NCBI GenBank assembly: GCA_029555025.1 | Contig: JAKPTZ010000017.1 | Coordinates: forward strand, 1 to 64,000 | Origin: Deltaproteobacteria bacterium | GTDB taxonomy: Bacteria; Myxococcota_A; UBA9042; DTJE01 | Direction: 5' to 3' | Length of the DNA stretch: 64,000 bases | In this document: piece after piece, positions 37,833 to 48,361 of the stretch | How positions within the stretch are numbered: the first letter of the stretch is position 1 | Layout: every line of letters starts with the position of its first letter | Notes under the pieces: model-generated | Seen by the model: only the letters and a program-made list of their open reading frames with translations | Told to the model about the DNA's origin: nothing | The model's database searches: none | Position numbers and translations under genes: made by a program

Positions 37833-39356
37833 ATGACAACCAGCAGCGCAACCATTGCAAACACTATCTCCCTGATGGCCACCAGGCTGGCAGCAATCGT
37901 CGCCTTCCTCCTGCTTTTCTATCAGGCCGGTTCCGGAAGCCTGCTTCCTTCGGACGACTCAGCGTATGCGCGTGCCGCCATCGAGGGAACTCGCGGCGGG
38001 AGGCTTGCCGACGTGACGTGGATGGGGCACCCGCTGTTCGAAAAGGGGCCGGTGCTGTTTTCGGCGATACAGATCGGCGGACTTGCCGGGGGGTCCGTCG
38101 AACTCCAGGCCCGCCTTCCCGGTATCGTATTCGGCCTGATGGTTCTTCTGCTCATATTCCGCATCGGCCTTGATCTGGGACTTTCCCGGCAGGCGTCCAT
38201 TCTGGCCGCCGCACTGTGTCTGGCCACCAGCGTGTTCTTCTTCAACGCCCGGCGCCCGATGACCGACATTCCCGGGTTGATGTTCGCACTTGCCGGTTTC
38301 AGGGCCATGACGATTGCAAGGTGGCGATCACAGGCATTCCTTGGCGGGGTGATGTTCGGGTTGTCATCCTTGTGCAAGCTGACCAGCCCAGTCCCCTTCA
38401 TCATTGCGGCCGTGGCGGCGAGGATTGCAGGATACCGACCGCGAGCCGATTCGGAGCCTGCCGACACGCTGTCGCCTGCCGCATGGTCCGTGCTCGGCCT
38501 TGCGGGCGGGCTAGCGGCATTCCTTCCGTGGCATGCGTGGATGGCCGTGGAACACGGCTCGCGGTTCATTGAAACGTACTTCGGATATCACCTGTTCGGA
38601 CGCATGTCGGCGGCGGTGGTTGGGACGGGAAGGGCGGAGGCATACCTGGGCTGGCTTGCTTCCCGCGACGTGGTCGGCGCCGCCCTGCTTGCAATCACCT
38701 TTCCCGTCGCCATGATACTGGCAATCCGCCGGAACAGGCCGGCATTTGTTGTGCTTCTGCTGGTGCTGCTGCCGCTTGCCCCGCTTCTTGTTTCGTCAAC
38801 CGCGCTGCCGCACTACCTGGTGCCGTGCGTCGCCGGGACATCGCTTGCCGCCGGTCTGGCGGCCGACAAACTGCTGAAACGCATTGGCGGATCCCGCTCC
38901 CGGCTGGTCGCGACGATTGCGATGGCGGCGATATGCGCCGCATCTTTCTTGAATTCAAACCTGAAGGACATGCTGAATCCGGATTATTCGCCTGCATCAA
39001 AGACGCTCTGCCAGGAGATGCTTGCCGACAGATCGGCCGCCAGGATCGCCGGGATGTTCGACCTTCACGACATGGCCGTCCCGCTTTACTGCGACATGAA
39101 CATGGATCTTTTTGTCAGCAATCCTGGATTCAGGGCCGCCGTGAAGGACATCCCGATGCTGAAGCCGATCGTCAGGGATCTGGACGCGCGCACCATTCGC
39201 GGCCTTGCCGACACCGGGGAAATACTTGTCTGCGAACATCACGGCCTGCCCGTGCTTAAGTCGATGGCCGCCGCTTCGGGACTGGATGTCAGGGTCAAAT
39301 CGGTCAAAGGGCTTTTCGCGGTTTCATTTTTCCGGCCCGGTCAGGACGGCAGCTAA
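37833..39356 (+). CDS. GT39/ArnT-like membrane glycosyltransferase
   Basis: 507 residues with about ten TM helices. The N-terminal loop has SDDSAYARAAIEG and later DIPG, resembling the acidic catalytic loop of polyprenyl-phosphate-sugar transferases (PMT/ArnT). A soluble C-terminal domain of about 130 residues follows. It probably adds sugar from a lipid carrier to a lipid or protein on the outer face of the membrane. Acceptor unknown. Its last 4 bp overlap the convergent feoB. Confidence 0.8.
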   Translation: MTTSSATIANTISLMATRLAAIVAFLLLFYQAGSGSLLPSDDSAYARAAIEGTRGGRLADVTWMGHPLFEKGPVLFSAIQIGGLAGGSVELQARLPGIVFGLMVLLLIFRIGLDLGLSRQASILAAALCLATSVFFFNARRPMTDIPGLMFALAGFRAMTIARWRSQAFLGGVMFGLSSLCKLTSPVPFIIAAVAARIAGYRPRADSEPADTLSPAAWSVLGLAGGLAAFLPWHAWMAVEHGSRFIETYFGYHLFGRMSAAVVGTGRAEAYLGWLASRDVVGAALLAITFPVAMILAIRRNRPAFVVLLLVLLPLAPLLVSSTALPHYLVPCVAGTSLAAGLAADKLLKRIGGSRSRLVATIAMAAICAASFLNSNLKDMLNPDYSPASKTLCQEMLADRSAARIAGMFDLHDMAVPLYCDMNMDLFVSNPGFRAAVKDIPMLKPIVRDLDARTIRGLADTGEILVCEHHGLPVLKSMAAASGLDVRVKSVKGLFAVSFFRPGQDGS

Positions 39357-41314
39357 CGTCCCGCAAGACTGACAAGGAAGGCCAGCACAGTCGCCACCGA
39401 CGCGGAAAGTAACACCGATATCCCTGTCCACTTCCAGCCGATTTCGCGCACCTGGGTAATGACCGTGGCGACACATGGGATGTAGAAAAGGACGAACACG
39501 ACGAAAGTCATTATCTGAACCGGGGACATTACCGAAGACACATCGGTAGTGCCAAGGGCCTGAAACAGCATCAGCAGGGTCAATTCCTTTCGAAATATCC
39601 CGAACACAAGCGTGACCCCGACGGCGGCAGGCAGGCCGAGCAAGGTGACGGTGAAGGGCTGAAGGAATGAATTGATCATGCCGTCGATGCCGGCGAATTC
39701 CAGCAGAGCCATCAGAACCGATGCCACAATCAGGGCCGGCCATGCCGACAGCAGGAACGACCTTGTGCGGAACCAGACCTTGGCGGCGACCGAACGAAAA
39801 GGTGGAATCCTGTAAGGTGGAATGTCCATGAGCAGCCCGAACGGAGTACCCGGCACGAACGACGAAATCAGCCTTCCGACCCCGGCTGCGACCAGGATGT
39901 TCAACAAATAGAATGCGATAACCCACTTCAGCCCGAAAAAGGCCCCGACCAGCGCCAGGATCACCACCGTACGCGCAGAACACGCGATGAATGGGCTTAT
40001 CAGTACCGTCAGCAGCCTGTCGCGGCGACTTTCAAGCGCCCTGGCCCCCACGATGGCCGGCACGTTGCAGCCGTAACCCATGATAAGCGGGACGGCGCTC
40101 TTTCCGTGAAGGCCGATTCGATGAAGCAGGCCGTCCATGAGGAATGCCGCCCTTGGAAGGTATCCGACGTCCTCGAGAAGGGCCATCAGGAACAAAAGTG
40201 GCAGAAGATAGGGCAGTACGATTGCAAGGCCGCCGCCAAGGCCGTCAACCAGGCCCTTGAAAACGGCTCCGACAACGCCGGGGAACCGGCCGGCCAGCGC
40301 CTCCCCGAGATGTTCGAAGGGAGCGGCCACAAGGCCGGAAAGGGCGCCCCCGACAAAGAACGACATCGCGAAGAACCCCGCAAGCGCCGCGAAAGCCGCC
40401 AGGGGGCCGAAGACAGGATGCATGGCGACCGAATCGAAACGATCCCGCTTCGACCTCACCGGCTTACGCACGACCTTTGAAACCGCCTCGGAAAGGTTCA
40501 CGGCGATGGCGTGGCGGTGCGAGGCAAAAACCCCGTCCTCGGGCCACCCGTGTTCAACGGCAAGCTCATGTCGTATGCAAAGCGCCGCCTGAAGCGCTTC
40601 CCGATTGAGCGAACCGACCCTGGCCTCCACGTCGGCATCGCCCTCCAGGACGCGAACCGCGAAGAAGCGGCGTTCCGATGGCTCCAGTCCCGCGGGCAGA
40701 AGCGCCTCGACAGACTCGATTGCCATGTCAACGTCCCGGTCATAGACCGGCCTGATGGCCTGCACCGGCCGGGAGGCAACCGCAAGGGCGCTTGAGACGA
40801 CCTGAACGACCCCGGTGCCGCGGGTCGCCACGGTCGGCACGACCGGAACGCCAAGCCGGGCCGAAAGAAGTTCCACATCAATCGAGATGCCCTTCCTGGC
40901 AGCGTCGTCCATCATGTTCAAGGCAATTGCGAAGGGCATGTCCGTCTCGGCCATCTCCAGTGCCAGTTCCAGGCTTCTGGAAAGAACCGAGGCGTCAAGG
41001 ACGAGGATGATGGCGTCGGCGCGCCTTTCGTCCAGCCAGCGCCTGGTGACCGCCTCGGCCTCGTCCGAGGGGTTGAGGGAATAGGTTCCTGGAAGGTCAA
41101 AAAGGCGCACGCGCCTGTTGCCGACCACGGCCAGGCTCTCGGTGAACTCGACGCTGGTGCCCGTGAAATTGCCCGTGTTGGCCTTGAAGCCGGCAAGGGC
41201 ATTGAAAAGGGTGCTCTTTCCGCAATTGGGCTGGCCTACGAATGCCAGGGTCGGTATGTCGGAACCGTTGGAATCGGGCAGTTCAAGAAGCGTCCCTATG
41301 TCTTTCAGTTTCAA
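39353..41314 (-). CDS. feoB: Ferrous iron transporter FeoB
   Basis: 653 residues. An N-terminal G domain (GQPNCGKST, DLPGTY, NMMD) is followed by a membrane domain with two Gate regions, including MGYGCNVPAI and the Cys in SPFIACSART. It imports Fe2+ powered by nucleotide hydrolysis. It starts at TTG, with GGAAGGA upstream, inside the 3' end of feoA (32-bp overlap). Fur control comes from the site at 41556. Confidence 0.96.
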   Translation of the reverse strand: MKLKDIGTLLELPDSNGSDIPTLAFVGQPNCGKSTLFNALAGFKANTGNFTGTSVEFTESLAVVGNRRVRLFDLPGTYSLNPSDEAEAVTRRWLDERRADAIILVLDASVLSRSLELALEMAETDMPFAIALNMMDDAARKGISIDVELLSARLGVPVVPTVATRGTGVVQVVSSALAVASRPVQAIRPVYDRDVDMAIESVEALLPAGLEPSERRFFAVRVLEGDADVEARVGSLNREALQAALCIRHELAVEHGWPEDGVFASHRHAIAVNLSEAVSKVVRKPVRSKRDRFDSVAMHPVFGPLAAFAALAGFFAMSFFVGGALSGLVAAPFEHLGEALAGRFPGVVGAVFKGLVDGLGGGLAIVLPYLLPLLFLMALLEDVGYLPRAAFLMDGLLHRIGLHGKSAVPLIMGYGCNVPAIVGARALESRRDRLLTVLISPFIACSARTVVILALVGAFFGLKWVIAFYLLNILVAAGVGRLISSFVPGTPFGLLMDIPPYRIPPFRSVAAKVWFRTRSFLLSAWPALIVASVLMALLEFAGIDGMINSFLQPFTVTLLGLPAAVGVTLVFGIFRKELTLLMLFQALGTTDVSSVMSPVQIMTFVVFVLFYIPCVATVITQVREIGWKWTGISVLLSASVATVLAFLVSLAGR

Positions 41315-41531
41315 CTGTTATCCTTCCGGCCATCTCCCGGCCGACCGCAATGTTCGCTCCAGTCGATTCAACCCGGACCAGGATGGGACCCGAAAACGGG
41401 GCGCGGCGCACGACGCTGACGATATCTCCTGCGTGAATGCCCAGGCTGGCCAGGTTGCGGGACATCCCGAGGCCGCAGCCCACGCATACGACCTTTACGG
41501 GCAACGATTCGGAAACATCTAGAAGGGTCAT
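41283..41531 (-). CDS. feoA: Ferrous iron transport protein FeoA
   Basis: 82 residues, an SH3-like protein that regulates FeoB. MSRNLASLGIHAGDIV and the C-terminal IAVGREMAGRITVE are typical. The frame extends to 41708, but the ATG at 41531 follows GAGGTGG and lies just downstream of the Fur box. It overlaps feoB. Confidence 0.93.
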   Translation of the reverse strand: MTLLDVSESLPVKVVCVGCGLGMSRNLASLGIHAGDIVSVVRRAPFSGPILVRVESTGANIAVGREMAGRITVETERHRDAS

Positions 41532-41555: not shown

Positions 41556-41574
41556 GCTAATGATAATCATTTTC
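41556..41574. promoter_or_regulatory. Fur box over the feoAB promoter
   Basis: The 19-mer GCTAATGATAATCATTTTC matches the Fur consensus GATAATGATAATCATTATC at 17 of 19 positions. It covers the predicted -10, TATCAT (minus strand, 41560-41565), whose -35 TTGTAT lies 16 bp upstream (41582-41587). Iron-loaded Fur would block the promoter. Confidence 0.9.
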
Positions 41575-41605: not shown

Positions 41606-42622
41606 TCAGCGGCCTGATTCGACGCCGGTTACGCGCCGAAGCCATTCGGATCCGCGATCCTGCCAGCCGGGATTGGCCTCGATGAAGGCACTTTGGCAGT
41701 AGCCGCAATCCTCGCAGACCCGATCGCAGCTTTGCAGCTTTTCAAAAACATCCGGTGGTTCGCGATAGCCGCCAAGGAAGCCGGTCCAATCCGATTCCAG
41801 TGCGATGAAGCGGCCGACTTCGCCCAGGATGAACGACGTGGTCGAATCGCGGCCGGCGAGCTTGACAAGACTGACGATGCCGCGATAGCGCGGGATGGAC
41901 GCGGGAACGATCTCCGTCTGATAGTGCTCCCACGGGGCCGCAGGCTTCATGGCCGCGCACATGGCGCAGTAACGTCTGAAATCGGTGTCGTCAACCGAAT
42001 CCCTGAAGCCGATGGTCATGGCATGCTGGAACATGTATGGGCAGGCCGGCAGGCACTGTTCGTTCGGGATAATCTCGATCTGGACGCCCAGCCTGGCCAT
42101 CGCCCGCAGCACATCGGGATCCTTGTTCACCACGCGGGATGGAACGATGCGGGAAACGCCGGCCATCCTGACCCAGTGCCTGGCCCGCGTCACATGCGCA
42201 ATGTCTGCGGTGGCGGACGCAACCAGCTCGACTTCGGGACAGACGGCCCTGACATGCTCGGCAAGATGCAGATCCCCGATGGTGAATGATCTGACGCCTT
42301 CCGATGCCGCATTCGCGATGTAATCGGCAACCATCCTGTGTTCGGAAGGCGGAACGAAAGGGGAATTGACCGCCATGTTGACAGACAGCCCGATGCGGGA
42401 TGCGGCGCAAACGATGCCGGGAACCATCTTTCGATACTCGACGGGATCCGGACCGTTCCAGGCCCTGAACGTCCCGCTGACATCAAGCGGGGCCGGAATG
42501 AAGATCTCGGCAATGGAAGCGGCCATCGTCTGAAGCATCTGGATCAGCCGCGGGTCGTGATTGTATGGCACGGCCAGCCGCATTCCGAGATCGACCAGCC
42601 TGCTTGACGACTGTTCACTCAA
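41606..42622 (-). CDS. Peptidase U32-family protein with two Cys clusters
   Basis: 338 residues. The U32 fold is recognised from its central motif NEQCLPACPY and following region. Cys residues fall in two sets: CLPAC plus YCAMC (middle), and CDRVCEDCGYC (C-terminal). U32 members such as UbiU/UbiV, RlhA and TrhP carry a 4Fe-4S cluster and serve in oxygen-independent hydroxylation rather than proteolysis. I infer an Fe-S protein. The start is TTG, preceded by GAGGAAGACAAGG and overlapping the lipoprotein stop; ATG 42583 is the alternative. It ends the nitrogenase-like operon, 74 bp before feoA. Confidence 0.75.
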   Translation of the reverse strand: MSEQSSSRLVDLGMRLAVPYNHDPRLIQMLQTMAASIAEIFIPAPLDVSGTFRAWNGPDPVEYRKMVPGIVCAASRIGLSVNMAVNSPFVPPSEHRMVADYIANAASEGVRSFTIGDLHLAEHVRAVCPEVELVASATADIAHVTRARHWVRMAGVSRIVPSRVVNKDPDVLRAMARLGVQIEIIPNEQCLPACPYMFQHAMTIGFRDSVDDTDFRRYCAMCAAMKPAAPWEHYQTEIVPASIPRYRGIVSLVKLAGRDSTTSFILGEVGRFIALESDWTGFLGGYREPPDVFEKLQSCDRVCEDCGYCQSAFIEANPGWQDRGSEWLRRVTGVESGR

Positions 42623-43397
42623 CCTTGTCTTCCTCGGCCGCAGGTTCGGCCGGTTCACCGCCTTCGGCGGTTCTGCCCGGAACCGGAACGGCAACGGCGG
42701 AGGGGGCCATCCAGTCAACTCCTTCAGGATCCGAAAGCAATCCATCCGGGAGCGCCGTCCTGATAATGAACGGCCCGCTGAAATCGACCGGGCCGCCTGC
42801 CGCCGCCTCAAGTGCCTTCTCCGCCCAGCGCTCCATCTCGTCAAGCTTTCCTTCGGGCGGAAGGGTACGCCTGGGCTGGAAAACCACCATTGTCGTCTTC
42901 AACTCATCGACCGGCATGCCGGAAGGTGCCTGGGCATCGGCCGGCAGCGGAAGGCAGACCCGGACGACCTCGTTGAACAGCCATCCCGACGCGGATTCGG
43001 GGATGAACAGGAATGGCCTTCCGTGCTCGACCTTCGCCTGTTCAAGGGCGCCCTGGAGTTCACCGATGACGGCCTGCAGTTCGGGAATCGACTTCACGGT
43101 GCCGGGGGCCGCTTCCCGGAAGACGTACCGGAACCCGGAAAGGCGCCGCAATTCGCCACGGCCAACCGGGTTCGCAAGCGATCTTATCCGCATGTCGTCA
43201 GCAATGTGCTTTCGAAGCTCACGCCTCCTGGCCTCGGGATCCTCGGGCGGGGGAGGCGCGGTCGGCAACATCGTGGAAATCGGCTTGCCGTCAAGGATGA
43301 CCATCTCGGGATCAACCGGATGCGTGCGGCTGCAGCCGACGACGGAAGACAGGAAAACGAACATGGCCGCACAGACGATGACAAGTGTTATCCGCAT
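42615..43397 (-). CDS. Lipoprotein of unknown function
   Basis: 260 residues. The signal peptide ends in lipobox SVVGC (Cys22). The body is soluble and contains only one further Cys; its C-terminus is Glu/Ala-rich. I recognise no family. It lies 52 bp after the third nitrogenase-like gene and overlaps the U32 gene, so it belongs to this operon. The start is ATG with GGGGGAT; the frame extends to 43475. Confidence 0.75.
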   Translation of the reverse strand: MRITLVIVCAAMFVFLSSVVGCSRTHPVDPEMVILDGKPISTMLPTAPPPPEDPEARRRELRKHIADDMRIRSLANPVGRGELRRLSGFRYVFREAAPGTVKSIPELQAVIGELQGALEQAKVEHGRPFLFIPESASGWLFNEVVRVCLPLPADAQAPSGMPVDELKTTMVVFQPRRTLPPEGKLDEMERWAEKALEAAAGGPVDFSGPFIIRTALPDGLLSDPEGVDWMAPSAVAVPVPGRTAEGGEPAEPAAEEDKVE

Positions 43398-43449
43398 GAT
43401 ATCCCCCGCGATTCCCGTGACGTGGGCGAACGACGCCGCAATGATTATA

Positions 43450-45183
43450 TCAGAGTGCGCGACCGGCGGGCCCAAATCGGGATCCGGCCATGTACCTGCG
43501 ATAAAAAGGCAGGGAAGCCAGGCGCTGGAAACGTCGCAGCGTCCTTAACGCCCCATCGATGCCGGGCTCGAAAATGCGCGGCGAAAAGGCAGGCACTCCG
43601 GCCCTCGTCGCCCTGCGCTCGAAAAACATCTCGGAATATACGGCGGCCACGTCGTCTTCCCGCAGCAGCCCGTCCAGATCCTGCCTGCTGACGAAAGACG
43701 CGGCCTGCACCAGGTCCTCCCCGGCCGGAATCCCATTGCGGACGGTCTCAAGCGCGAGCCCTGCATCACCATCATCGCCATGAACAAGCAACCTGACAGA
43801 AAGGCCAAGCCCGCACATCATGGGGACAATCGGCAGCCCGGCCGGGCTGACCGGATCGACCAGCCTGGACGCTTCCGAAGGGTCGCAGACGAAGATGAAG
43901 GACTTCCCGACCTGTCCGGGGGCGGTCAGCCGACGGGCCCATTCCGCCCTTGCGATCGCCGCTTCGGGAACTTCAATTCCGCAATCCGCGCAGATCGCTT
44001 CAAGCCATCGAACGGTCGCGTCGATACCCCACGGAAAGGCGGGCCGGATGACTCGACGACCCGATTCGGCCGCGCCTTCGACAAGCCCGTCATACATGGC
44101 ATCGTGAAGGCGCGACGGCGCGATGACGATGGTTTCCGCGCAAAGGGTGTCCTGCAGCAACCGCCTTGTGACAAGGGGGACTATCGCGCCGCTGACGGAC
44201 AGCCCGGCAAGTTCCAGCAGTTCCTGAAGCTCCGAAAGGGCCCGTCCCGGCCTGTAGCCGACAAGCCCGACCGTTTCCGGACGCCCCGGCCGCGACAGGA
44301 TCCGGCCGCGAAGACCGGCGAAGGATTGCATGAAAATCTCGCTGGGGCTGTGGGGCGAAACCGGAGTCACATAACTGATGCCTTCGGGACACACTTCGTC
44401 CAGCCCCCGGAGCACGTTGGTCGGATCCTCGGCCACGATGACCGGCACGCAGGTCGAAATGACGACAACCGGCCCGCGGAACGTGCCGTCAAGCAGCTCG
44501 CGACGAACCTTCAGGTCAATCTTCCTTGTGGAATCCATGATGACGTCGTTGTCGTCGAGGCCGGTTATCGGGCCGACCGCCTCGTGATGGGAAAACAGGT
44601 CGAATGGATAGACGAAATGGCCCGGAAGTCTGACGCGGGCCCCCGGCGACACGAACCTGCATTCAAGATCTCCGTGGACGATGAAGGACGAATCGGAATC
44701 GAATTCAAACGCCTCGCGAAAACGCCTCTCCATGGCGGCATCGCACATGAACCTGCGCCACCCCTCCTCGGGGGCCCAGAACAGTATCGGATTGAATTCC
44801 GCAGGCTTCGCGGGGGACGCCGACTGATCGGCCGGCCCAAGTCCCGAACCGGCAAGGCGCGCCACGTCGGCCATCTTCATCGAACCGGCGCTGGCGGCCA
44901 TGCGGGCGATAAGAACGGCCCACGGCCTGGAGACATCGGCCCCGATCAGGCAGAATGACAGGTTACCGGTCGAGGCATACGATGGACGGCCGTCATCGGG
45001 GGCAACCGAAACAACCACGCTCCCGACCCCGACCCAGTCGAAAAGAAGACGGATGGAATCGGAGCCAGGCTCGACCGAAGACAGGACGCAGCCTGCCGCG
45101 GCAAACCTCTGCAGATCGAATGCATCGGTGATTGCCGGAACCGCCTCGGGCCCGACAGTGATTTTCGGCGGCCCACCGTCCAT
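43450..45183 (-). CDS. Nitrogenase component 1-like large subunit B
   Basis: 577 residues. An N-terminal beta-rich region (1-135) is unrecognised and shared with the 46551 paralogue. The rest has the nitrogenase/oxidoreductase component-1 fold: FMCDAAM, IVHGDLECRF and VISTCVPVI correspond to the three P-cluster Cys regions of NifD/BchN (Cys147, 175, 245), plus Cys265. SD is GGGGGA. No NifH-like reductase is nearby. The presence of an Fe-S cluster at the subunit interface is inferred; its substrate is unknown. It lacks the overall length and motifs of NifD or NifK. Confidence 0.78.
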   Translation of the reverse strand: MDGGPPKITVGPEAVPAITDAFDLQRFAAAGCVLSSVEPGSDSIRLLFDWVGVGSVVVSVAPDDGRPSYASTGNLSFCLIGADVSRPWAVLIARMAASAGSMKMADVARLAGSGLGPADQSASPAKPAEFNPILFWAPEEGWRRFMCDAAMERRFREAFEFDSDSSFIVHGDLECRFVSPGARVRLPGHFVYPFDLFSHHEAVGPITGLDDNDVIMDSTRKIDLKVRRELLDGTFRGPVVVISTCVPVIVAEDPTNVLRGLDEVCPEGISYVTPVSPHSPSEIFMQSFAGLRGRILSRPGRPETVGLVGYRPGRALSELQELLELAGLSVSGAIVPLVTRRLLQDTLCAETIVIAPSRLHDAMYDGLVEGAAESGRRVIRPAFPWGIDATVRWLEAICADCGIEVPEAAIARAEWARRLTAPGQVGKSFIFVCDPSEASRLVDPVSPAGLPIVPMMCGLGLSVRLLVHGDDGDAGLALETVRNGIPAGEDLVQAASFVSRQDLDGLLREDDVAAVYSEMFFERRATRAGVPAFSPRIFEPGIDGALRTLRRFQRLASLPFYRRYMAGSRFGPAGRAL

Positions 45184-45255
45184 TGATAATCCCCCGGGCC
45201 GTCCGCAGATTGACGCCCGGTCAGCCCACCCTGTTGATCCTGGCCCCGGCGCCGA

Positions 45256-46554
45256 TCAATGGTCGGGAACGACCTGATAGCTGCCGGCAAGCCGCTTCAG
45301 GTTCCACGTCCGTGAGCCGGCTATCGTGGAAAACAGGGTTCCCGCCGATACGATTCCCGACATGACGTTGACCGCGCCGGGCCAGCCCAGCGTCGGTGCA
45401 TCGAAAAAGGCGTGCGTGCCGTAGCTGGTGAAACCGAACTCATAAAACGGCCTGCCGAGCCGCAGTGCCACGTCGATGCCCCTGGTCGGGACGATCAGCA
45501 TATCGACATCAACGCCGTCCTCGACTTCCGCCAGCGTCGGCAGCCCGCAAACCGGCTTCGGATCGAACGAGGTCGATTGGGCCGCCGCGATGCTCACCCC
45601 GGCATCCTGCAGCATCCTGACCAGGCCTTCCGCCAGCCAGGGATCCGCGGCCACGATGAACTTCATCGACTCAAGCGAGGCTGCTGCCCTTTTGAACGAA
45701 TCGCCCCATTCAAGGCTTTCGGCCTTGAGGAAATCCTCGGCCCGATCCAGGCGTCCAAGCGCCGTCGCCACGGTGCGGACAAAGTCGGCCGTGCCTGCCG
45801 GTCCGAACGGAAGCGCGGCGTTAACCAGCCTTGCCCCGAGCCTGCGCGCCAGAATCCTGGCGGCGCGGGCGCCGTATGGCAGGGAAATCACGGTTCCGGC
45901 CCGCGCGACATCGCCAAGCTCCGCAACCGTGCTGTTCGAAGGCCAGATCGAGCAGACGTCAAGCCCAAGCCCGTCCTGTAGAATGCGCCGGATTTCCCGC
46001 ACATCGGCCAGCCGATCGGCCTCGGTTCTGTCAACAAGGGGCCCGACGACGGCGACCGATTCGGGATTCCCCGACCCGGCGCCCTCAAGCGGAAGCGTCC
46101 TGGCGACGGCGGCAAGAACCTGTCCGTATCCGTCCAGCCAGTCACCCTGAAGCGAACGGGCCGGCACCTCGGCAATCAGCTTGCCTGTTCTGGCGGACAG
46201 GTCGCGGGCGATCCGGTCGTACTGCGTCCCGGTGATGCTGGCCATCGGCATGGCCGTGACAAGAACCATCCCGGCGTCCGGTTCGGCCGCCAGTCGGGCG
46301 GCCAGGGCCGAAATCTGCTCCTCGCGGTCAAGAACCACGTTGTTGATATCGGCCAGCGTGTGGGCCACGCGATGGCGCCCCGTCACGTCAAGCAGGGTCG
46401 AATGAAGATCCTGGGCGCCGTGCACGAATTCGGCCTTGAAGAAGAGGCAGTCCGGACCATCCGTCAGAAGGTACAGATCCGGAATGGCGTTCGCGGCCAG
46501 ATAAACCCCGACCATGTAGGGAATCCTGAATTCGTGACGGTCAGCAATCTTCAT
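45256..46554 (-). CDS. Nitrogenase component 1-like small subunit
   Basis: 432 residues, a shorter component-1 protein without the extra N-terminal domain. TDGPDCLFF (Cys36) aligns with the HGxxxC motif; the later STCxxxIGDD motif is AMPMASITGT, so that Cys is lost. This recalls BchB/ChlB, which gives fewer ligands than BchN. The ATG overlaps the upstream stop as ATGA, with GGTGG before it. It is probably a heteromeric partner of the two large subunits. Confidence 0.75.
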   Translation of the reverse strand: MKIADRHEFRIPYMVGVYLAANAIPDLYLLTDGPDCLFFKAEFVHGAQDLHSTLLDVTGRHRVAHTLADINNVVLDREEQISALAARLAAEPDAGMVLVTAMPMASITGTQYDRIARDLSARTGKLIAEVPARSLQGDWLDGYGQVLAAVARTLPLEGAGSGNPESVAVVGPLVDRTEADRLADVREIRRILQDGLGLDVCSIWPSNSTVAELGDVARAGTVISLPYGARAARILARRLGARLVNAALPFGPAGTADFVRTVATALGRLDRAEDFLKAESLEWGDSFKRAAASLESMKFIVAADPWLAEGLVRMLQDAGVSIAAAQSTSFDPKPVCGLPTLAEVEDGVDVDMLIVPTRGIDVALRLGRPFYEFGFTSYGTHAFFDAPTLGWPGAVNVMSGIVSAGTLFSTIAGSRTWNLKRLAGSYQVVPDH

Positions 46555-48305
46555 GACTTCCACCAGTTACGGGAGCTGCCGACAGTGGCGATGAAACCGG
46601 AATACCTGTCGTAGAACGGATTTGCGGCCAGCCTGAGGAGACGTTGGGCCGTCCTCACGGCGCCCTCGAATCCCATCTCGAAGTCCCTGGCCGAAAATTG
46701 ATGCCGGCCATGTCTCGAGATGCGGGAATCGTAAAAGAATTCGGAAAATACCGCGCCGCCGCTGCCGGATGCGATGGCCGCCGCAAGCGAATCGCTGTCG
46801 GAAAACCCCTGAACCTGGACTTCGACGCCGCTGGCCGCGGCCCAGGTACCGATTCGATCGCAGAAGTCCCTGTAAAGCGCCGGAAAATCGTCGCGGGCGA
46901 GCACCCTTATCCTGTATCCGAGTTCGGCCACCGCCGGAAGCGGCGCCAGTCCGGTTGCCGAAACCGGATCGAGCAGCCGCGCCGGACTGGAAGGGTCGGC
47001 CACGAACGTCATCTCGTACTGCGCGGCCTGAAGCCGCAGCTTTTCCATGACACCGGCAATGCCGGCCAGCCTTGATTCGATGACCTGGGCCGCCCTGTCC
47101 TCCATTCCGACCGAAGCCGCGATTTCCATCAACCAACGGGCTGTCGCGGCAAGCCCGAAAGGCGGCGCGGGAAGGATTCGACGCCTTCCGCAATCGAGAA
47201 ATACCCTATCGTAAAGCTCGGTCATGAACACGTTCGGCCTGAAAACAAGCACGTCCGCCTTCATGATTCGCTCCATGAGCCTTGCGCTCGCCCTTGGAAG
47301 GATGGTTCCCTTGACCTCGATTCCAACCTCCGAAATCAAGTTTCTCAATTCACCGTGGGTGCGGCCCGCCCGGAACCCGACCAGCGCGATCGATCCGTCG
47401 TCAGGCCTTTCCTCCCTGACGGCGCGTTCCCTTGCGTCATCGAGATACTGCATCATGATTTCGGTCGGATTCTCGGTCTGCGGACTGATGTGGTACATCC
47501 CGTGGGTGCACCGGTCGCGGAATTTCTCCATGACCTTCTCGACATCGTCGCCGATGACCACCGGAACGCACGTGGAGTTTATTATCACCAGGCCACGCAC
47601 CGCCTGGTTCGAAAGCATGCCCTCGATATGATCCGAAAGACGCTGCTCGCCGCCATAAATGACATCGTGGTCGGTAAGATCCGTCAACGGATCGCGCCCC
47701 TCGGATTCGCCGAAAATCTTCCACGGGTAATTGAAGAAGCGTGGAAGAGTCGCGCGGAATCTGGGGGTGATGAACTTGCACTCGAGATCCCCGTGAACAA
47801 GGAAACACGCGTTGTCTTCAAACTGAAGGGCCTCGTAGAACTTCCTGGCCATCGCGTGGTCGCAGAAGAACTGGGACCAGGAGTCGCCGGATCCCCATGC
47901 GTTGATCGGCGAATCGGCCACGTCGGCCATGTTGTCCGGCACGCCGCCCGCCAGGACGAATATCAGGTCGTCGATGTCGGCATCGCCGGAAGAGACGGCA
48001 ATCCTGCTTAAAAGCACCTGCCAGGCCCTTCCGGCGCTTGCACCGGCCACCGACAGGGAAAGCCGCCTGGTGCTCATGAAAGCCGGCTGGTCGTCGGCCC
48101 GCCTGATAATCACCGTCTCGCTGCCGACCCCGTCCCAGTCAAGTTGAAGGATGATCCTCTCACCGGCGATGGTGACCCTGGTGATCTCCATGCCGGCCTG
48201 GATGAAACGGGCCAGGTCCAGGCGCTGGACGAACCGTTCGACCCCTTCGGCCGGCACTTCAAGATAGAGCTGCTGTCCCGGTTCCATCAAGATTACCCGA
48301 TGCAT
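46551..48305 (-). CDS. Nitrogenase component 1-like large subunit A
   Basis: 584 residues, paralogous to the 43450 protein along its whole length. Cys148 (FFCDHAM), Cys176 (VHGDLECKF), Cys246 (STCVPVVIGDD) and Cys266 occupy the same positions as in the paralogue, offset by one. STCxPxxIGDD is a hallmark of NifD/NifE-type proteins. ATG 48305 has GGAAGG upstream and fits the promoter; an earlier in-frame ATG (48341) overlaps the -10. It heads an operon of five genes. Confidence 0.78.
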   Translation of the reverse strand: MHRVILMEPGQQLYLEVPAEGVERFVQRLDLARFIQAGMEITRVTIAGERIILQLDWDGVGSETVIIRRADDQPAFMSTRRLSLSVAGASAGRAWQVLLSRIAVSSGDADIDDLIFVLAGGVPDNMADVADSPINAWGSGDSWSQFFCDHAMARKFYEALQFEDNACFLVHGDLECKFITPRFRATLPRFFNYPWKIFGESEGRDPLTDLTDHDVIYGGEQRLSDHIEGMLSNQAVRGLVIINSTCVPVVIGDDVEKVMEKFRDRCTHGMYHISPQTENPTEIMMQYLDDARERAVREERPDDGSIALVGFRAGRTHGELRNLISEVGIEVKGTILPRASARLMERIMKADVLVFRPNVFMTELYDRVFLDCGRRRILPAPPFGLAATARWLMEIAASVGMEDRAAQVIESRLAGIAGVMEKLRLQAAQYEMTFVADPSSPARLLDPVSATGLAPLPAVAELGYRIRVLARDDFPALYRDFCDRIGTWAAASGVEVQVQGFSDSDSLAAAIASGSGGAVFSEFFYDSRISRHGRHQFSARDFEMGFEGAVRTAQRLLRLAANPFYDRYSGFIATVGSSRNWWKS

Positions 48306-48332
48306 GACCGGCCGGCCTTCCGGCGGTGAACA

Positions 48333-48361
48333 ATAATCCATTTAACCGCAAGCCGCGTCAA
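48333..48361 (-). promoter_or_regulatory. Predicted promoter of the nitrogenase-like operon
   Basis: Minus strand: TTGACG (48356-48361), 17 bp, GATTAT (48333-48338). Transcription would begin near 48326, leaving about 20 nt before ATG 48305. No Fur box is seen. Confidence 0.5.

Follow-up and report, generated by a model that had tools for sequence, protein, structure and literature searches.

Most of the characterised component-1 enzymes that carry only a [4Fe-4S] cluster act on tetrapyrroles. In CfbCD, component 1 is a homodimer of CfbD without a K subunit. A NifH homologue is the partner of every known member of the nitrogenase superfamily (PMC11423573). Mar contains both a P-cluster and an [Fe8S9C] cluster (PMC12552129), and Isr, which is thought to be another member of the [4Fe-4S] type, acts on isethionate. 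Isr has also been reported from Myxococcota, and its subunits IsrD and IsrK contain one and three cysteines, respectively (PMC11423573).

The window, by which we mean the whole 64-kb stretch of DNA that was analysed, belongs to a genome of 3.49 Mb (158 contigs, 97.6% complete). It encodes two large component-1 proteins (LA and LB) and a small one (S), and a reductase of the NifH family (H) is found elsewhere in the same genome. Like BchXYZ (COR), this set combines three subunits with a NifH-like reductase, has three alpha-side cysteines and a single beta-side one in the alignment, and lacks the FeMo-cofactor cysteine. It differs from BchXYZ in that LA, S and LB lie outside the Bch part of the tree, S scores 27 bits against the BchZ model (cut-off 529) and H 163 bits against the BchX model (cut-off 331), an extra N-terminal domain is present and H is unlinked. 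With BchLNB (DPOR) the set would share a [4Fe-4S]-only component 1, predicted here from the ligand pattern. The BchN model aligns with S across 250 residues at 62.6 bits, far below the cut-off of 420, while BchB has an Asp at the position of the S cysteine and the proteins are separate in the tree.

A [4Fe-4S]-only, ATP-dependent enzyme, as predicted here, is also found in CfbCD. Yet H reaches 271 bits with the CfbC model (cut-off 402) and LA 17.4 bits with the CfbD model (cut-off 268.4), and CfbD is built from one subunit, whereas two subunit types are encoded together here. MarHDK has the component-1 fold in common with the window's proteins; the best fold match of S is MarD, and H is near MarH by sequence. 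However, as judged at the NifD/NifK positions, the proteins here lack the cofactor cysteine and most ligands of the beta side, and LA and S show only weak, partial sequence similarity to solved Mar chains. IsrBHDK likewise represents an HDK set with a radical-SAM partner, but its cysteine split is the reverse of the one found here, with three in LA and LB and one in S. The Nif, Vnf and Anf nitrogenases differ in that Cys275 and His442 of their alpha subunit are absent from LA and LB and the P-cluster set is incomplete.

On sequence grounds, the model score and subunit composition rule out Cfb, the cysteine split rules out Isr and the cluster ligands rule out Mar; the tree itself was built without Mar, Cfb, Isr and Nfa. 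A survey of titles and abstracts in the open-access literature, with subscription papers outside its scope, returned no description of this branch. LA, S and LB thus apparently form a superfamily branch undescribed in that literature and apart from Nif, Bch and a set from Sporomusa, where Mar, Cfb and Isr were compared by models, ligands and descriptions and Nfa lay outside the comparison.

Gene organization at the locus

Open reading frames and sequence place the genes on the minus strand (41606-48341) in the order LA, S, LB, lipoprotein and U32. All five genes proposed in the sequence-only reading are therefore present in the order it gave, with three PF00148 proteins and one PF01136 protein. 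LA (46551..48341, minus strand) is the large, alpha-like subunit of 596 residues. That reading had let it end at 48305, which is an in-frame ATG at codon 13 of a frame that reaches 48341, and its start is ambiguous. The ATG of the small, beta-like subunit S (45256..46554, minus) is preceded by a good ribosome-binding site and overlaps the stop codon of LA as ATGA; a GTG in the same frame, at 46563, could be an alternative start. LB (43450..45183, minus; 577 residues) and the lipoprotein gene (42615..43397, minus) follow after gaps of about 72 and 52 bases, respectively, both with good ribosome-binding sites. In the lipoprotein, the likely ATG precedes a lipobox, VVGC, read directly from the sequence, and neither Pfam nor NCBIfam gave a match. 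The U32-family gene (41606..42622, minus) starts with TTG, and its product matches PF01136 with an E-value of 2.3e-8.

A second genome of the genus (G001) carries the same five genes in the same order, flanked by lepB and feoB, with LA 59% and U32 64% identical to their counterparts in the window. Since the order is repeated, the gene run is not due to chance. A relative of the lipoprotein was seen only in this sister species, however, and the U32 gene is not co-distributed with nitrogenase-like genes in other genomes, so that neither can be counted as a core part and no role in the system is implied for either. The U32 protein as a fixed partner was rejected for want of co-occurrence with component-1 genes elsewhere. 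A role in defence was likewise dropped, as PADLOC gave no match.

Downstream on the same strand lie feoA (41283-41531; PF04023) and feoB (39353-41314; PF02421, TIGR00437), which the earlier reading did not mention. A Fur-box-like site, GAAAATGATTATCATTAGC (41556..41574, minus), stands between U32 and feoA, directly upstream of feoA-feoB. It agrees with the consensus at 16 of 19 positions, and an equally good site was found in 3 of 3000 random windows. Because of the position of this site, feoA-feoB (iron uptake) is probably a unit separate from U32 and the genes upstream.

Component-1 identity and phylogeny

LA, S and LB are component-1 proteins by sequence comparison. All three pass the PF00148 cut-off of 28.6 bits, LA with 91.8 bits (E-value 5.5e-26), S with 118.9 bits over nearly the whole profile (3.3e-34) and LB with 40.2 bits (2.6e-10), and LB is 36% identical to LA. 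None of these proteins, nor H or a further small-subunit paralogue termed S2, reaches the cut-off of any NCBIfam nitrogenase-superfamily model. Foldseek comparisons took in low-confidence models of LA and S and linked LA to NifD chains (3.4e-11) and S to chains of MarD and nitrogenase (4.8e-15). For LA, the AlphaFold model was of low quality (mean pLDDT 52, 3 sequences) and served fold recognition only. At the E-value used, no relatives of S were found on plasmids or phages.

A careful tree of 54 proteins was calculated with Nif, Bch and Sporomusa references; it included relatives of the large (L) and small (S) subunits and of N and K, a second component-1 pair described below. In this tree L and N form one group (100/99) and S, K and S2 another (100/100), both outside the references. 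LB groups with LA and with LA-type proteins of three further genomes (G002, G006 and G008) in one clade (100/99). S2 is nearest to the S proteins of the LA lineage (87/94). A quick tree of 140 proteins recovered the same L, S and K groups without joining L and N, so that this join is less certain. Should it be right, L-S and N-K would appear to have arisen by duplication of an operon. Bch is represented by one sequence per subunit on long branches, and as several reference branches are long, the deep order is unsure. The proposal of a new nitrogenase-like complex thus stands insofar as the component-1 proteins fall outside every described family that could be tested, in a tree that lacked Mar, Cfb, Isr and Nfa.

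The Sporomusa reference is a nitrogenase-like H-D-K set on plasmid pSPTER of the termite-gut bacterium Sporomusa termitida (L096:7177-11264). The genes immediately in front of it encode an iron ABC transporter, and TonB receptors are encoded close by.

Predicted cluster ligands

Cluster ligands were assigned from an alignment of the family proteins with Nif, Bch and the Sporomusa plasmid set, which also bears out LA as a large component-1 subunit. The cluster cysteines are residues 160, 188 and 258 in LA and 147, 175 and 245 in LB, and S has a single one (Cys36 counted from the ATG, Cys39 from the GTG at 46563). All of them are kept in both species of the genus. Equivalents of NifD Cys88 and Cys154 occur in all 45 L-labelled proteins, and the single cysteine in 39 of 40 S proteins. 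The cysteine in the NifD Cys62 region is kept by the LA/LB clade and absent from most other L proteins, and 3+1 ligation would therefore apply to this clade, not to the whole family. N and K also show a 3+1 cysteine pattern (all three in 19 of 19 N proteins, one in 20 of 20 K proteins) and no FeMo-cofactor cysteine. S2 has no cluster cysteine; a Glu is aligned there in 4 of 4 proteins, in a stretch where the alignment is uncertain.

LA, LB and S have Pro at the position of the FeMo-cofactor cysteine (Cys275), a feature shared with BchN, BchB and BchY. In the His442 column, LA and LB have Arg, and 35 of 40 S proteins have His. Of the three P-cluster cysteines, S keeps one. Given three cysteines in LA or LB and one in S, each LA-S or LB-S unit could bind a single [4Fe-4S] cluster through 3+1 ligation. 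The pattern is that of a [4Fe-4S]-only enzyme, and the cluster itself is predicted.

Reductase and further component-1 genes in the genome

As noted earlier from the sequence, the 64-kb window contains no NifH-like gene. The single PF00142 match of the whole genome is H, on contig C148 and unlinked to LA-S-LB; it is a candidate for the missing partner of the operon. The operon is thus without a reductase gene, but the genome is not, and of the two options put forward, a reductase encoded elsewhere or a different electron donor, the first fits. H overlaps the gene for S2 (the pair at L010:10686-12594), a short paralogue of the small subunit in which the cluster cysteine and a large portion of the first domain are gone. 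H proteins encoded beside S2 form one clade (99) among those of H-L-S operons.

The H-S2 pair also occurs in G002, G006 and G008, and in G007, where S2 is broken by a contig end and no LA-type subunit was found. Among 13 genomes of the family, LA-S and H-S2 are each present in five, four of which are common to both (p 0.03, small numbers). No H was seen in the 86% complete draft of G001. A second component-1 pair in the window's genome, N-K (L013:3-563 and L011:9784-11847), represents a separate paralogous family. The N gene lies in two parts, one at the end of contig C117 and the other at the end of C15; these ends face each other and presumably join.

Relatives, their operons and a shared N-terminal domain

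Homologue searches were centred on one phylum, which is probably Myxococcota, as a Myxococcales MAG is the only relative found under a name. Among 110 genomes, related at levels between genus and phylum, relatives of LA were found in 28, relatives of H in 32 and PF00148 proteins in 36. The L profile, to which N proteins respond as well, matched 40 of 284 genomes drawn evenly from the phylum. Some genomes are rich in copies, among them G006 with 12 LA matches and 15 PF00148 matches. The usual unit among these relatives is H-L-S, and at four loci (L081, L088, L132 and L133) no stop separates H from L, which are read in a single open frame and are apparently natural fusions. Distances between L proteins correlate with those between S proteins across operons (r 0.80, with 0 of 2000 shuffles as high), in a comparison where two loci with double operons each contributed one wrongly matched L-S pair. 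Only the two genomes of this genus showed the large-small-large arrangement. The gene order recognized from the sequence is thus real, but it is a derived duplication of the large subunit and not the basic plan of the family.

The neighbouring genes of the relatives suggest no consistent pathway. In one genus, dxr (1-deoxy-D-xylulose 5-phosphate reductoisomerase) lies directly upstream of LA-S (L076:3-755 in G008 and L077:3577-4641 in G002). A gene for a cation-efflux (CDF) transporter is found beside an H-L-S-radical-SAM operon in G002 (L078:6031-7005) and beside LA-S in G006 (L075:5573-6502).

At seven loci a radical-SAM gene follows directly downstream of S, and at five of these it encodes two radical-SAM motifs. 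LA carries an N-terminal accessory domain at about residues 27-151, and the N-terminal 125 or so residues of LA and LB matched no Pfam family. The domain recurs in most L proteins and is present twice in at least two. It was linked to the N-terminus of the partner radical-SAM proteins with an hhalign probability of 95% (E 4e-8, one comparison); two-motif proteins with the related domain are encoded at L084:7687-10635, L085:12998-16165, L089:5281-8283, L122:4130-7138 and L078:6956-9391. That two enzymes of one operon carry the same extra domain suggests that it binds a substrate or carrier common to both. The window's operon has no partner radical-SAM gene, and its genome no clear one. Candidates there were partial, with 25-29% identity over the C-terminal half, and were taken as generic radical-SAM proteins.

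Proposed function and alternative readings

On balance, we favour the view that LA, S and LB form the catalytic half of an ATP-dependent, [4Fe-4S]-only nitrogenase-like reductase of an organic substrate, fed by the unlinked H. They are probably not a nitrogen fixer. In this scheme, modelled on the protochlorophyllide and chlorophyllide reductases, H would hydrolyse ATP and reduce the cluster of LA-S or LB-S, from which the electrons would go to an organic and probably conjugated substrate sitting in the pocket itself. LA and LB would be two versions of the large subunit sharing S, and one H and one S would then serve two related reactions or substrates. By analogy with most characterised [4Fe-4S]-only enzymes, a tetrapyrrole may be named as a first guess. 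The guess is a weak one, as Isr acts on isethionate, and the gene neighbours in this genome lend it no support.

Two large subunits and one small may stand for two reactions, or for one asymmetric complex. In the latter case, LA-S-S-LB would be a single component 1 of a new branch, in which two large subunits share one kind of small subunit and one reductase, with an active site in each half and with the N-terminal domain of the L and radical-SAM proteins holding the same substrate or carrier. We regard this full picture as tentative and rather doubtful.

It is unlikely that the operon has a donor of its own unrelated to NifH, or is a relic that has stopped working with any reductase. The operon does lack H, the H-S2 pair lies on another contig, and S2 is without the cluster cysteine; but the conservation of the cluster cysteines in both species speaks against decay, H of the same genome belongs to the H clade of H-L-S operons, and no other donor gene was seen in the gene run. 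Nor do we expect LA-S-LB to be a NifEN-like scaffold or maturase that builds or carries a cofactor for N-K and reduces no free substrate. A second pair N-K with one H in the genome recalls NifDK with NifEN, the radical-SAM partners are reminiscent of NifB, and in G005 an N-K pair adjoins an H-L-S-radical-SAM operon. Yet N and K share the 3+1 cysteines and lack the FeMo-cofactor cysteine, so that no complex cofactor is expected in either pair, and in many relatives H-L-S operons were found without N-K. Finally, although full Mar, Cfb, Isr and Nfa sequences were absent from the tree, Isr is reported from Myxococcota (PMC11423573) and MarD is among the best fold matches of S, membership of LA, S and LB in one of these described Group IV families is very improbable in view of the low CfbD score of LA and the CfbD homodimer, the reversed cysteine split of Isr (PMC11423573), the incomplete set of ligands for the Mar P-cluster and [Fe8S9C] cluster (PMC12552129) and the weak, partial matches to solved Mar chains.

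Implications for the nitrogenase superfamily

Few reactions have been characterised in the nitrogenase superfamily. The branch described here looks separate and rich in paralogues, one relative having 15 PF00148 matches, and may therefore carry out chemistry new to the superfamily. With H-S2 and LA-S-LB at separate loci, nature has set up a test case for a single reductase acting with several catalytic partners. The search for the substrate could start from the N-terminal domain that the large subunits share with the radical-SAM proteins.
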